Shown one piece after another: positions 23,916 to 31,873 of a stretch of 43,725 nucleotides of DNA. Every line of letters begins with the position of its first letter. Positions within the stretch are counted from its first letter, which is position 1. The notes beneath the pieces were generated by a model. It was not told the origin of the DNA. It ran no database searches and saw nothing but the letters and a program-made list of their open reading frames with translations. The position numbers were made by a program, and so were the translations under genes. The stretch comes from an uncultured Bacteroidota bacterium (GTDB lineage: Bacteria; Bacteroidota; Bacteroidia; Bacteroidales; FEN-979), in assembly GCA_937900965.1 (NCBI GenBank), contig CALCGJ010000288.1, positions 1 through 43,725 on the forward strand, read 5' to 3'.

Positions 23916-24034
23916 CAGTAGGCAGTAGGCAGTAAGCAGTTCGCAATTCACGTCTCACGTTTCACGTCCCTCGTCCCTCGTCCCTCTTCCCTCGTCCTTC
24001 GTCCCTCGTCCCTCGTCCTTCGTCCTTCGTCCCT
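23916..24034. repeat. 7-nt tandem arrays (GGCAGTA, then CGTCCCT/CGTCCTT)
   Basis: Right after the MoxR stop come three to four copies of GGCAGTA. CACGTCTCACGTTTCACGT units follow, and then about ten copies of CGTCCCT or CGTCCTT. The last part lies inside the minus-strand radical SAM gene and encodes its C-terminal tail. The same CGTCCYT unit recurs at 28659-28730 in the same orientation. Confidence 0.75.
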
Positions 24035-24968
24035 GAAAAGTATCCCTTTCCTCCAGCTCTCTCTCAATCCGCTTTAATACTTCGTCGTATCTGATGAGAT
24101 CCCAGCTCAAATGATGAAGAAGTTGGGGTGGAACCTCTCCGGCAAACCTTTCCACTACCATGGAAGGTGATAACCGTTCCAGGAACCGGATAATGAAATC
24201 GATATACTCTTCCAGGCTGAACTGATGAAACACGGAGGGATCAGCCATATATTCCTGCTCCATCCGGGTTCCTTTGACAATCTGCAGCTGGTGAAACTTG
24301 ACTGTATCGATCGGCATTTGTGAAATAATTTCAGCTTCAAGCATCATCTCATCCAGGCTCTCTCCCGGTAAACCAAAGATGAAATGGGCTCCTGTCCGGA
24401 TGCCAAGGTCATGTGTTTGTTGAATGATCCTTTGACTGGTCTCAAAGTCATGCCCCCTGTTGATTCGCTGCAGAGTTTTGGTATAACATGATTCCACGCC
24501 ATATTCTACCTGGATAAATGATTTTTCCGACAACTCAGCCAGGTAGTCAAGCTTCTGCTCATCCACACAATCAGGCCGGGTTCCGATCACGAGGCCTACA
24601 ACACCAGGATAGGCAAGCGCTTCTTCATACAACTCCTTAAGGAGGGATAAAGGTGCATATGTATTGCTATACGGCTGGAAATAGGTCAGGAATTGAGAGG
24701 CCCGGCGATAACGAACAGAGTGAAAATCGATCCCCTTTGCAATCTGGGAGTGAATAGTTTCTACGGGGTTACAATAGGAGGGGTTGAAAGCATCATTGTT
24801 ACAATATGTACACCCCCCGTTTCCTTTTGTCCCATCCCGGTTTGGACAGGTAAAACCTGCATCTACCACTACCTTCTGCACCCTGCCACCAAACACACTA
24901 CGGATATATTCGGTATAGGAATTAAAACGTCTGCTATGACCCCAACTGTACAATTTACGATTTATCAA
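23955..24968 (-). CDS. Radical SAM protein, YhcC/TIGR01212 type
   Basis: A 337-residue cytoplasmic iron-sulfur enzyme of the YhcC/TIGR01212 group, whose reaction is unknown to me. The N-terminus has WGHSRRFNSY, then the cluster cysteines C41, C53 and C56 in FTCPNRDGTKGNGGCTYCNN. Further family motifs are YFQPYSNTYAPL, GLVIGTRPDCVD, EYGVESCY, RGHDF and HFIFGLPGES. Both ends are unusual. The start is a TTG within an AAATCGTAAATTG-type repeat, with another TTG five codons later as an alternative. The last 20 or so residues (GRRTKDEGR and variants) are translated CGTCCYT heptamers. The true ancestral C-terminus probably lay near residue 315. Confidence 0.9.
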   Translation of the reverse strand: MINRKLYSWGHSRRFNSYTEYIRSVFGGRVQKVVVDAGFTCPNRDGTKGNGGCTYCNNDAFNPSYCNPVETIHSQIAKGIDFHSVRYRRASQFLTYFQPYSNTYAPLSLLKELYEEALAYPGVVGLVIGTRPDCVDEQKLDYLAELSEKSFIQVEYGVESCYTKTLQRINRGHDFETSQRIIQQTHDLGIRTGAHFIFGLPGESLDEMMLEAEIISQMPIDTVKFHQLQIVKGTRMEQEYMADPSVFHQFSLEEYIDFIIRFLERLSPSMVVERFAGEVPPQLLHHLSWDLIRYDEVLKRIERELEERDTFQGRRTKDEGRGTKDEGRGTRDEGRET

Positions 24969-28658: not shown

Positions 28659-28730
28659 CTCGTCCCTCGTCCTTCGTCCCTCGTCCTTCGTCCCTCGTCC
28701 TTCGTCCTTCGTCCCTCGTCCCTCGACCCT
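28659..28730. repeat. CGTCCCT/CGTCCTT 7-nt tandem array
   Basis: About ten copies of CGTCCCT or CGTCCTT fill the space between the sigma-operon terminator and the end of the minus-strand gene, whose stop codon is only 3 nt from the array. The unit is the same as in the array at 23960-24034, with the same orientation relative to the minus-strand gene end. Confidence 0.75.
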
Positions 28731-28733
28731 GAC

Positions 28734-30791
28734 TCACAGTCTGACCCGTAACTGCACCTTCACCTCCGACTTCATGCTTCCATCGATGCTCTCCAATCCG
28801 CTCCCAATTGTATTGCGATCCATATATTTAGTGGCTCCCAACCATCCCGAGAGGTCAAATCTTCTGCCTATTCCCAATTTAAATATCAGAATGCAACGGA
28901 GTCCTTTTCCATAAAACGCAGGCGCTGACCAGCTATACAACAAGTTAGGCTCATAGGTGTAAATCCTGGTGTTGAAGTAAGGGACATCGAAAAGAGTGTA
29001 TTTTATCCTTATCTCTCTGAGTATCCCCGTCCTCCGGTAACCAACTTCCTGGCTGGCAAGGTATCCTGATTCATTCTTTTGGCCTTCAATCCGATAATTC
29101 CGTAATGCAAAGCAACTCCTCAGGAAAATCGTCGGAATTGCTGCGATGTTGATCTCCACCTTGAGGTCATTTCTCCTCTCCTCTGAAAGGGGAGTAGTTT
29201 TTCTTTCATAAAAGTGGCTGTTAGCCTCTCCTCTTTTCAGACTATACCGTAACGAAAGGGACCAGAAGGGAGAAGCCTGGAAGTGACCGAATATACCTGC
29301 TTCAACCCCATCCGAAGAACCGTTTACATGATAACGAACCCATGGAAACCGAAAGAGATCAACGTAGCCGGTAATCGTAGTTTTTGGGATGAACTGAGTT
29401 TGCAACCTGATGAGAAGACCTTTCTCATTTGCTGTTAGGCTATTTTGCGAAATTGCAGTTGAAAACGGGTTCTGGTATTGTGGCTGATAACTTCTGCAGA
29501 TTAGCAGCAGGTCAATACCCTGCACAGGAACTGCTGTAACTCCAACAAGCCAGGCTTTCCCTCCATTTAAACTGATACTGAACTCTCCGAAAAGTTGAGC
29601 GAAAGCTACCCTGAAACGGCCATCTATCCCGAGTACGCCAAACCGGTTTCCCTGAAGTGCAAAATGCCTGTATGTTTCTTCCTTAAGCTGGAGAGGCCTG
29701 TCCCAGGTCCCATAAAACCCGGTCAACCCGATAAGAAAAAAAAGCCCACGGTAACTAACATGCCCACCATACACCCATTCTCTGACTTGATTTTTCCGGG
29801 CAAGTTCTGTCAATGTCCTGTGATAGCCGGTCTCTGAAAAAGAGCTAAAACTCAAAGGGATTGCCACTCCGGTATCAACCGTTGAAAGCGAAGCATCTTT
29901 CCGGGTAGCAGAAAAAAAACCAGACCATTCCAATGGTCCTGTCCGGATCTTAATTGCAGCACCCCTCAGATATCCATATTCACTGACTGATTGCGACGGT
30001 CTGAACCCGGAAAGGTACGACATAGCACTTCCGAAACTGACTGACGATCCGAAAGAACTACCCCCCAGAGTCAATCCCTGGCCAAAGGATGCCCTGAAAT
30101 TCCCCACGATCAACTGCTTCAGCCACCTTAGGTTCTGGACAGCGATAAAACCAGAATAAAAATCCATCCCCAGGGGCTGACTCCCCCTGAAAAACTCTTC
30201 ACCGGCATCCTTATCTCCCGAAAATCCAAGCATCACTTTGTCGTAAAATGTATACCGGTACCTAAAATAGTATCTCTGCGGATTACCCAGATAGAAATTG
30301 CCCGATTCATTCAGCCCGATTGAGTCTTCCACCTGATATCCTGACTGCTTCTGCATAACCTGCTGGTACCGGAAAACAACTTCATGCCGGCCACGCTTGA
30401 TGAGATTTCCCGGTGTTATCCGGATCTGAGGCGGAGGAAGGCCTATGTCAAGATAGGGTATCAGTTGCTGAATGATGATGGAATCGAATCCCTCTATGGC
30501 TTGCAACTCATATACTGTAAATACTTCGCCATATTGGTCGAGATAGGCTGTCAGATTCTTGATTTGCAATGGGGTAAGGAAAGGAATTTTTGAAAGATCA
30601 TTTGGGCCTGGCCGATTGATATTGATTTTTTTCAGTGCAGCCGCATATTCGAGAACCGCCTCCTCATCAGGTTCCTTGTCATGGTTTCCTGAATAGGTTG
30701 TTATAGCTTCATCCAACAGGATGTGCTCAAGATCTTGTGATATCCCGTTTAATAGGAATACACTAAATCCAATTAGTAGAATTGTTCTCAT
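28734..30791 (-). CDS. Helix-hairpin-helix outer-membrane protein
   Basis: A 685-residue exported protein. A signal peptide (1-18) is followed by two helix-hairpin-helix motifs at about 50-110 (ININRPGPNDLSKIPFLTPLQIKNL, then VYELQAIEGFDSIIIQQLIPYL), ComEA-like in pattern. The remainder (130-685) is beta-rich with alternating aromatic strands (FRYRYTFYDKVMLGFSGD, RIYTYEPNLLYSW) and ends VKVQLRVRL, which suggests an outer-membrane barrel. This architecture recurs in Bacteroidetes and its function is unknown to me. It follows the PorV/PorQ-like gene on the same strand, but a repeat-flanked GxxExxY remnant now separates them. The ATG lies just after that remnant's stop codon. Confidence 0.75.
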   Translation of the reverse strand: MRTILLIGFSVFLLNGISQDLEHILLDEAITTYSGNHDKEPDEEAVLEYAAALKKININRPGPNDLSKIPFLTPLQIKNLTAYLDQYGEVFTVYELQAIEGFDSIIIQQLIPYLDIGLPPPQIRITPGNLIKRGRHEVVFRYQQVMQKQSGYQVEDSIGLNESGNFYLGNPQRYYFRYRYTFYDKVMLGFSGDKDAGEEFFRGSQPLGMDFYSGFIAVQNLRWLKQLIVGNFRASFGQGLTLGGSSFGSSVSFGSAMSYLSGFRPSQSVSEYGYLRGAAIKIRTGPLEWSGFFSATRKDASLSTVDTGVAIPLSFSSFSETGYHRTLTELARKNQVREWVYGGHVSYRGLFFLIGLTGFYGTWDRPLQLKEETYRHFALQGNRFGVLGIDGRFRVAFAQLFGEFSISLNGGKAWLVGVTAVPVQGIDLLLICRSYQPQYQNPFSTAISQNSLTANEKGLLIRLQTQFIPKTTITGYVDLFRFPWVRYHVNGSSDGVEAGIFGHFQASPFWSLSLRYSLKRGEANSHFYERKTTPLSEERRNDLKVEINIAAIPTIFLRSCFALRNYRIEGQKNESGYLASQEVGYRRTGILREIRIKYTLFDVPYFNTRIYTYEPNLLYSWSAPAFYGKGLRCILIFKLGIGRRFDLSGWLGATKYMDRNTIGSGLESIDGSMKSEVKVQLRVRL

Positions 30792-30792
30792 T

Positions 30793-30912
30793 TTATTTCT
30801 TTTCTACCACAGAGGTCACGAAGGAGGCTGATTCAAGCAAGCCAGGTCCTAATTCCTTATGAACATCTATGGCGGATTTAATGATAAGACTTGTCAATTC
30901 TCGTTCAGTCAT
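30793..30912 (-). pseudogene. GxxExxY protein remnant (N-terminal 29 residues)
   Basis: A 39-codon open frame starting at 30912 begins MTERELTSLIIKSAIDVHKELGPGLLESA, a clear match to the start of GxxExxY proteins (usually about 125 residues). It then runs directly into the flanking repeat (SFVTSVVEKK) and stops. Everything after the GPGLLES motif, including the name-giving GxxExxY segment, is missing. The ATG overlaps the stop codon of the upstream barrel gene. It is best read as the decayed cargo of a repeat-flanked element. Confidence 0.8.
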
Positions 30913-30969
30913 GAGAACCTCCTTTTCTTTTCCTCCATGTCCTCCGTGCCTCCTTCGTGTTCTCCGTGG
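30807..30969. mobile_element. Repeat-flanked GxxExxY mini-element with 22-bp inverted ends
   Basis: Two 22-bp sequences in opposite orientation bound this 163-bp segment: CCACAGAGGTCACGAAGGAGGC at 30807-30828, and CCACGGAGAACACGAAGGAGGC read on the minus strand at 30948-30969. They match at 19 of 22 positions. Between them lie further CACGGAGG/CATGGAGG-type units and the GxxExxY remnant. From memory, repeats of this CCACRGAG kind commonly accompany GxxExxY genes. No transposase is present. Calling it mobile is inference. Confidence 0.55.
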
Positions 30970-31792
30970 TAAAATCTTTCCCGAAGGAATACCCAACTGA
31001 AATCGCCGGAGAGAACCCAAGTGTCATATGATACCCCGTCGCAATATCAACGGCGAGCCTGCCTAATGACAACCCGAATCCTCCTGTAACCATAAATGGA
31101 TCGGAAAGAACCCCAATCCGCGCGGATACTGATCTGGCCAGGTGAATCTCCGCTCCTGTTTTCACCACCAGCGGGTGCTCCAGATCCTTCTCTCCCTCCA
31201 GGAGAATCAATACCTTCCCTGAAATGTTATACCCCGCACCCAATCGGAATACCATGGGCAACCGTTCATCAGGCGTCTCGGAGATTTTTACAGGGATGGG
31301 GTTGCAGATTTGTATCCCGATCGTCCAGGAGTGATCAGGTTTATACATCAGTCCGATCTCACTGGAGATGACTCCCCTTGAACCATAACCTTCAGCGATC
31401 TGGATTTTAAGGTAATTAAGCTGCACCCCCGTACTGAAGCGCTTTCCAAACTTCCGCGCATAGGCGATCCCGGCTTTGAACTCATTGTAAAGCTGGAAGC
31501 CCTGATAGGAGAGTGCCAGGCCGAAGGCCCCCGGTCGTCCCGACCAGGAGAGTGAAAGTGCTTCAAAACTAAGTTCCTTCATGAGGAACCGGTTCTCGAC
31601 AAACAAACCGACCTGCCACCCCTGTTCCCAAACAAAGCCTGCCTGGTTGTTGAATACCGACCATACCCCGGGTAATGCAACGGAAGCCCTGCCCATTGCT
31701 ACCGCCCGCCCATCTGGTATGAACTCACCTCCCGATCCAGTCACAGTAAATACCTGGGAAAGGAGAATCAGGCCGATAAAAATCCGCTTCAT
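30905..31792 (-). CDS. PorV/PorQ-like outer-membrane barrel protein, C-terminus altered
   Basis: A 295-residue exported barrel protein. The signal ends near TGSGGE. FIPDGRAVAMGRASVALPGVWSVFNNQAGF matches the start of the PorV/PorQ (FadL-like) family, which serves the type IX secretion system or related outer-membrane tasks. Repeated amphipathic strands follow (GVQLNYLKIQIAEGYGSRG, YHMTLGFSPAISVGYSFGKD). The natural end is probably around residue 273 (SVGYSFGKD). The last 22 or so residues, basic and unlike a barrel strand (TTENTKEARRTWRKRK...), are translated from the inserted repeat element. Whether the altered tail affects function is open. It was presumably once followed directly by the helix-hairpin-helix protein. 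Confidence 0.75.
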   Translation of the reverse strand: MKRIFIGLILLSQVFTVTGSGGEFIPDGRAVAMGRASVALPGVWSVFNNQAGFVWEQGWQVGLFVENRFLMKELSFEALSLSWSGRPGAFGLALSYQGFQLYNEFKAGIAYARKFGKRFSTGVQLNYLKIQIAEGYGSRGVISSEIGLMYKPDHSWTIGIQICNPIPVKISETPDERLPMVFRLGAGYNISGKVLILLEGEKDLEHPLVVKTGAEIHLARSVSARIGVLSDPFMVTGGFGLSLGRLAVDIATGYHMTLGFSPAISVGYSFGKDFTTENTKEARRTWRKRKGGSHD

Positions 31793-31873
31793 AATTTTTT
31801 CTTTCCCATTAATCAGGGAAAAGATGAAAAGGTTATACCCTGGTTAAAAGTTTTTTTTCTTTTTATTATCAAT

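Follow-up and report, generated by a model that had tools for sequence, protein, structure and literature searches.

We found that a segment of the window (the whole stretch of 43,725 nucleotides analysed here) is a shrunken leftover of a one-gene element, roughly 170 bases long and unable to make the protein. The segment probably derives, as a miniature form, from a mobile cassette of one gene, whose organisation is like that of the REPIN/RAYT system and which is served by a different enzyme. The mobility of this cassette is well supported, and we infer that the GxxExxY protein moves it through its arrays. In this reading, the intact cassette is a GxxExxY gene flanked on each side by an inverted array, whose short units are mostly spaced 8-12 bp.

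A GxxExxY gene remnant between two inverted arms

The segment occupies a gap of 182 bp between two protein genes (30792 to 30973, measured between tblastn ends). The upstream arm, 5' of the gene, is an inverted end of short units on the minus strand (30948 to 30974), consisting of CCACGGAGAACACGAAGGAGGC and 5 outer bases. TRF detected a tandem array here (30931 to 30968, minus strand; period 20, 1.9 copies), each period comprising about two units of 9-11 bp; the array continues inward as CACGGAGGACATGGAGG. The downstream arm (30802 to 30828, plus strand) is fused straight to codon 29 via an internal deletion. A preliminary description of this DNA had reported 22-bp inverted repeats around the start of a GxxExxY gene. 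These were seen at 30807-30828 (plus strand) and 30948-30969 (minus strand), and they can be extended to 27-nt arms that are 85% complementary, with 119 nt between them. When a consensus pattern of the two arms was searched, with N at positions where the arms differ and 3 mismatches tolerated, it was found at only these two positions of the window and in 0 of 100 shuffles.

Between the arms, a minus-strand ORF of 39 codons plus stop runs from 30912 down to 30793. The ORF, its profile matches and its likeness to the related genome G001 together define the gene remnant, which extends from the start codon to residue 29 (MTERELTSLIIKSAIDVHKELGPGLLESA; 30826 to 30912, minus strand); past this residue the frame continues through the right arm to the stop at 30793. 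The ORF matches positions 1-25 of 116 of the GxxExxY profile TIGR04256 (E 1.4e-4, 22.2 bits, the cut-off for full-length proteins being 35), and its score against PF13366 (PDDEXK_3) places it in that family (22.1 bits, cut-off 22). Compared with the intact copy of G001, 22 of the 28 residues after the start are identical. This likeness ends at residue 29, where the right arm starts, in agreement with the earlier claim that the coding part passes into the repeat where homology stops.

Both neighbouring genes lie on the minus strand. The upstream gene (30974 to 31792) encodes a conserved 273-aa protein with a weak PorV match (E 0.19), and the downstream gene (28734 to 30791) encodes a protein of 685 aa that weakly matches a helix-hairpin-helix family (PF12836, 22.5 bits, cut-off 27). 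The frame of the 273-aa gene now enters the array, down to 30905, and acquires a tail of about 20 residues (TTENTKEARRTWRKRKGGSHD). A stop found near here in the related genome G004 is lost in the window genome, and likewise in G001.

The motif TATAACCTTTTN6TTNCCNGATTAAT has a single occurrence in the window, ahead of the 273-aa gene (31808-31837, minus strand). By eye, a similar motif precedes three GxxExxY genes (loci L001, L003 and L004) as well as the four-helix-bundle genes that occupy the L004 site. We had considered the upstream motif TATAACCTTTT...GATTAAT as a part of the cassette and dropped it, since it is also found ahead of the 273-aa gene; it is thus probably a general promoter, possibly one typical of the taxonomic family. 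The window also contains two solo arrays of one 7-bp unit (CTCGTCC/CGTCCCT), with about 10 copies each, at 28659-28730 and 23965-24034. Arrays of this kind frame four-helix-bundle genes elsewhere. The array at 23965-24034 lies within an ORF of 337 aa (23955-24968) and codes for its C-terminal tail (GRGTKDEGRGTRDEGRET).

Empty and filled sites within the genus

We compared six genomes from the genus, one of them being that of the window. The 273-aa gene is present in four, and the 685-aa gene follows it in all four; G002 and G005 gave no match to the 273-aa gene. The gap between the two genes measures 182 bp in the window genome, 502 bp in G001, 29 bp in G003 and 19 bp in G004 (all between tblastn ends). 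At the orthologous gap, G001 has an intact 125-codon GxxExxY gene (133.6 bits against TIGR04256) between inverted ends of like type. The alignment of the window copy to G001 shows a single internal gap that starts at codon 29, spans about 300 bp and ends within the right arm. This bears out the proposal that an internal deletion joined the start of the gene to the far repeat, and the check proposed in the preliminary description, whether full-length genes have such inverted ends, comes out in its favour at the very same site. This one deletion removed everything from codon 30 to the end of the gene, and probably also the inward portion of the right array, leaving a short inverted doublet.

The gaps of G003 and G004 are empty sites, for which a check in relatives had been proposed, and no array of the filled-site type was found in them. 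By protein identity, G004 is the closest relative of the window genome (73% and 67%, with 59-66% for the other pairs of the four), so the full, mini, empty and empty states seem to require at least two events, either two gains or one gain and losses.

We tested three sites for empty alleles, the window site and two (L003 and L004) of the four sites with full-length genes in the window's genome, and all three vary between genomes of the genus. At L003, G003 has an empty site (6 bp vs 644), as G004 has at L004 (47 bp vs 637). The 47-bp gap contains a short palindrome (GTGAACG...CATTCAC), which may be left over from an array of a different type. At the three sites, whose flanks are too diverged, neither a target-site duplication nor an exact point of insertion could be made out.

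The arrays could instead be old intergenic repeats that grew by slippage and became hot spots where GxxExxY genes land secondarily. Solo arrays do exist, the window has heptamer arrays without a gene, and the palindrome in the G004 gap would suit such a history. However, the empty sites lack the filled-site array type, and the arms are inverted matches of each other and track the protein (see below), which makes this origin very improbable.

In addition, GxxExxY copies that are 83-93% identical were found at unrelated places. Two copies at unrelated sites of G039 (L040 and L069) have 91% identity over the stretch from -45 to +57 relative to the gene, and two copies from different genera (L065 and L069) are 93% identical from -33 to +47. 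We rejected a plasmid- or phage-borne gene, since the GxxExxY protein of Maribellus luteus (L132) had matches at E 1e-5 in 8 of 72,556 plasmid records and in 0 of 50,697 phage records. Thus, the spread of GxxExxY seems to be chromosomal.

Inverted arrays at the ends of GxxExxY genes

At least 563 places in GTDB genomes encode a GxxExxY protein. We surveyed 142 full-length genes with adequate flanks, of which 73 belong to the taxonomic family and 69 come from 80 named loci outside it (Bacteroidota, Planctomycetota, Chloroflexi, Acidobacteriota and others, the phyla being those of the record titles). Duplicate proteins, partial hits and genes with less than 100 nt of flank had been left out before this count. 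With other ORFs of the same loci and shuffles as nulls, an inverted pair at the ends with a score of 28 or more was found for 93 of the 142 GxxExxY genes, compared with 4 of the 166 ORFs and a single shuffle in 710. The pairs were found both in the taxonomic family (51/73) and outside it (42/69), and 49 of the 142 genes had no arm pair at this threshold. The window's genome yielded four GxxExxY genes of full length. In answer to the check proposed in the preliminary description, all four are bounded by inverted ends (scores 38-56), and each has a different unit.

In 71 of these pairs, each arm has at least two units; the other 22 of the 93 do not have a clear unit array on each side. The units conform to CRCNDWK, and their spacing is 8-12 bp in 250 of 280 cases, with 9 bp the commonest. 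Unit pairs in the right orientation were present upstream of 97 and downstream of 93 of the 142 genes, compared with 6 of 404 control windows. The upstream units run outside-in on the coding strand, and the reverse orientation is scarcer (25/142 and 24/142). From outer arm edge to outer arm edge, the intact cassette has a median length of about 490 bp.

The four control ORFs with pairs were two four-helix-bundle genes (PF05635), one GxxExxY gene and one ChsH2-type gene. Among 30 four-helix-bundle loci of the taxonomic family, 10 had no ORF that passed the filter and 1 had too short a flank; of the 19 tested, 17 have inverted arrays, mostly of 7-bp units. Two unrelated small genes therefore share one architecture and, at least once, one site. 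Since four-helix-bundle genes have like arrays, the architecture alone needs no nuclease.

The shared site is L004, which is common to two cassette kinds: it holds a GxxExxY gene in the window genome (G000:C264) and a four-helix-bundle gene in G003 (G003:C110, L318) and G002 (G002:C16, L320), and is empty in G004 (G004:C10). The arms of the four-helix-bundle gene score 49 in G003 and only 19, below the threshold, in G002. At another locus (L166:569-3421), two PF05635 genes with their own inverted repeats flank a GxxExxY gene within 3 kb; one of them has GTCATT repeats, and other ORFs alternate with these genes.

Array units follow the protein lineage

The sequence of the unit varies by lineage (CACAGATTA, CGCTAAGG, CACAATAGG, CGCAGATTT and others). 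The preliminary description spoke of CCACRGAG-repeat elements; that GxxExxY genes sit in elements with inverted ends is largely borne out, and CCACRGAG is one unit among several. When left ends were compared with all 142 right ends, their own right end ranked first for 52 of 93 and among the top five for 84 of 93. Across the 93 elements, arm distance was correlated with protein distance (r 0.43, 0/2000 permutations). The Mantel tests were carried out on sets reduced to elements without homologous flanks, and they revealed a strong correlation for 29 independent sites of the taxonomic family (r 0.72, 0/5000 permutations) and a weak one for 31 elements outside it (r 0.15, 71/5000). For example, CACAATAGG-type ends belong to eight elements from eight genomes that adjoin each other in the tree listing.

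The mismatches between arms (79 of the G.U type vs 114 of the A.C type) have no G.U excess, indicating that the arms are not kept alike by RNA pairing. Judged from these sequences, the arms look maintained as DNA rather than as an RNA stem. Their likeness could come in part from hairpin-templated repair between the arms.

These counts bear on a reading in which the arms pair in the transcript, either to cap or stabilise the message or to be a substrate of RNase III in the manner of 23S rRNA intervening sequences, mobility then being incidental. According to a published description, relatives of the four-helix-bundle genes are the ORFs of 23S intervening elements with stem-forming ends (PMC4990558). 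The window segment also folds well, although computed as single-stranded DNA (better than 200 of 200 shuffles, z -3.9). On the other hand, the site lies outside rRNA, and an Rfam scan of 30500-31300 gave no family at cut-off, with one weak IsrR match (16.9 bits vs 52). We rejected the RNA stem as the main reading on the G.U and A.C counts and the Rfam result, and consider it improbable.

Dispersed arms, decayed copies and outer ends

The two-unit arm pattern was found in 24 of 26 genomes of the taxonomic family with GxxExxY (258 hits, counting those next to GxxExxY genes and the repeats present in high copy in G021 and G024), compared with 4 of 17 genomes without it (4 hits). Without genus g2, the proportions are 24/26 vs 2/9. 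Similarly, the CACAATAG pattern was found in 20 of 26 genomes with GxxExxY vs 3 of 17 without it (minus g2, 20/26 vs 3/9), and G029 and G027 have 10 and 4 hits of the CACAATAG type and no GxxExxY. A search for the 22-mer beyond the locus had been suggested as a check of its tie to GxxExxY genes: the arms are in excess in genomes with GxxExxY, and they were found away from GxxExxY genes too. Of 33 CACAATAG arms counted, 4 adjoin GxxExxY genes. For the other 29, an inward partner within 220 bp was present in 18 and an outward one in 2, compared with 7 of 290 random segments. Among 150 exact pattern hits listed, 59 are single arms and 17 are pairs. The highest count for one arm pattern in a genome is 91 hits.

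We also identified 36 partial GxxExxY copies, 5 of them at contig edges. An inverted pair with a score of at least 28 was found in 17 of the 31 non-edge copies, three of which (L047, L050, L120) are doubtful. At least seven (L106, L107, L111, L112, L115, L117, L121) have lost part of the gene and retained both arms, so the window segment is one of a class of decayed copies. The suggestion that such elements can shrink to miniature forms is supported by these copies.

By eye, we observed repeats of about 165-200 bp in G024 (L251, L272-L291), G021 (L248, L292-L300) and G028 (L305), which have IS-like outer ends (GAGGGTGTCTCAAAAG; GGGCACTCCGATAAGTC) around inverted CRCNNAG arrays. G024 has 61 pattern hits. 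One of the IS-like outer ends resembles Tn5 ends. We had regarded the high-copy mini hairpins of G021 and G024 as proof of autonomous spread and dropped this argument when the alignment revealed the outer ends.

Some loci with full-length genes have a second, outer inverted repeat, 40-240 bp past the GxxExxY gene. L028, L054 and L029 are alike from -237/-235 to +60-95, which in L028 and L054 extends about up to an outer inverted repeat of the GCTACTCTTTATACACAT type. The outer pair of L029 is longer and poorer. Another outer inverted repeat (GGCTAAATCTTATTTTGATGTGCTGGAA type) is common to L065, L067, L056, L090 and L093.

These outer repeats raise the question of whether the arrays and their genes are cargo of non-autonomous IS-type elements (MITEs or mobile insertion cassettes), moved in trans by transposases, with GxxExxY serving for example in repair or defence. 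The outer repeats of the two locus groups, up to about which the likeness extends in L028 and L054, the IS-like ends of the high-copy mini forms in G021 and G024, and the like layout of four-helix-bundle genes all speak for this. However, the empty and filled gaps at the window site are too tight for outer ends, an outer pair within 450 nt was found for a minority of the 142 genes, and the array unit tracks the protein lineage over unrelated sites of the taxonomic family. We consider a mere passenger role less likely than a self-moving cassette, yet a serious competing explanation. Trans mobilisation by transposases may occur on top of a self-moving cassette.

Predicted fold of the GxxExxY protein

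In an AlphaFold model (mean pLDDT 94.2), the L132 protein has a core of the PD-(D/E)XK type. In a VIA-align comparison, the first match of the model was SSO0001 (Z 10.0, rmsd 3.7, 100 aligned), presumably a Cas4, followed by a restriction-like fold protein (Z 8.2) and a mixed field at Z 6-7.5, including Hjc (7.2) and the Cas4 protein Pcal_0546 (6.9). Foldseek returned nothing for this model at E 0.001 or better; its best rows (best E 4.3e-3) were lambda exonuclease and SSO0001. A sequence search of solved structures gave none at E up to 1. PADLOC gave no hit for the G001 protein and weak Cas4 and PDC-M36A hits for L132. Across 59 GxxExxY sequences, D67, E77, K79, H18, E27 and Q91 are invariant. 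By its modelled fold and its D...ExK residues, GxxExxY is predicted to be a small PD-(D/E)XK nuclease.

Such a nuclease might recognise its own arrays, join both ends and cut there. The cassette and its arm-only derivatives would thereby spread within the genome, as REPINs are thought to use RAYT. A broader proposal, which we put forward tentatively as a possibility, is that GxxExxY proteins mobilise a class of bacterial elements that is widespread, as yet undescribed and free of transposases: the nuclease, of PD-(D/E)XK type and Cas4-like, would recognise lineage-specific inverted arrays of short units, move its own cassette and spread arm-only miniatures. Four-helix-bundle genes would be a second occupant of this inverted-array layout and, in at least one case, of one and the same site.

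Comparison with known systems

MITEs and mobile insertion cassettes are internally deleted or passenger-bearing DNA between inverted ends, with size polymorphism between relatives. The cassette described here differs from them in that the intact G001 copy has no transposase gene, no target duplication was seen, and the GxxExxY ends are arrays that track the protein lineage; IS-like outer ends were found in some other copies only.

In REPIN/RAYT systems, a single gene has repeats close by, the likely unit is an inverted doublet, the repeat type tracks the gene lineage, and copies are dispersed (PMC3116915). GxxExxY genes likewise have lineage-tracking inverted repeats, strongly in the taxonomic family and with r 0.15 outside it. 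They differ in that GxxExxY is modelled as a PD-(D/E)XK protein and not as an HUH (Y1) enzyme, and that the arms are arrays of 8-12 bp units, whereas REPs are palindromic. REPs commonly exceed 100 copies per genome (PMC2817692), compared with at most 91 hits per genome for one pattern here. Because the enzyme has another fold, the cassette is not a member of the REPIN/RAYT system.

The intervening sequence of 23S rRNA, as described in PMC4990558, is a lone small S23/four-helix-bundle ORF between complementary ends and a proposed selfish element. In contrast, the cassette lies between two protein genes and has a GxxExxY ORF, and its arms act as DNA repeats.

The models TIGR04256 and PF13366, which both the remnant and the intact orthologue match, cover the protein only. 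As terms, GxxExxY occurs in two of 5.39 million open papers and PF13366 in one; one passage merely names GxxExxY as a domain adjoining a reverse transcriptase. No description of the inverted ends of GxxExxY genes was found in open-access full text, outside which most subscription journals lie, and PDDEXK_3, alone or with inverted repeat, was absent from the same text. We know of no source for a role of the GxxExxY family. The framed GxxExxY genes look like an undescribed type of mobile DNA.

Tying GxxExxY to inverted arrays, empty sites and miniatures gives the family a concrete and testable function. It might also explain much of the clutter that short intergenic repeats (CCACGGAG, GCGCTAAGG, CACAATAGG and the like) form in genomes of Bacteroidota and other phyla. 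Should the nuclease act on its own arrays, this would be a new REPIN-like route of dispersal with a Cas4-like enzyme, and the site held in common with four-helix-bundle genes makes the spread of 23S intervening sequences a question once more.
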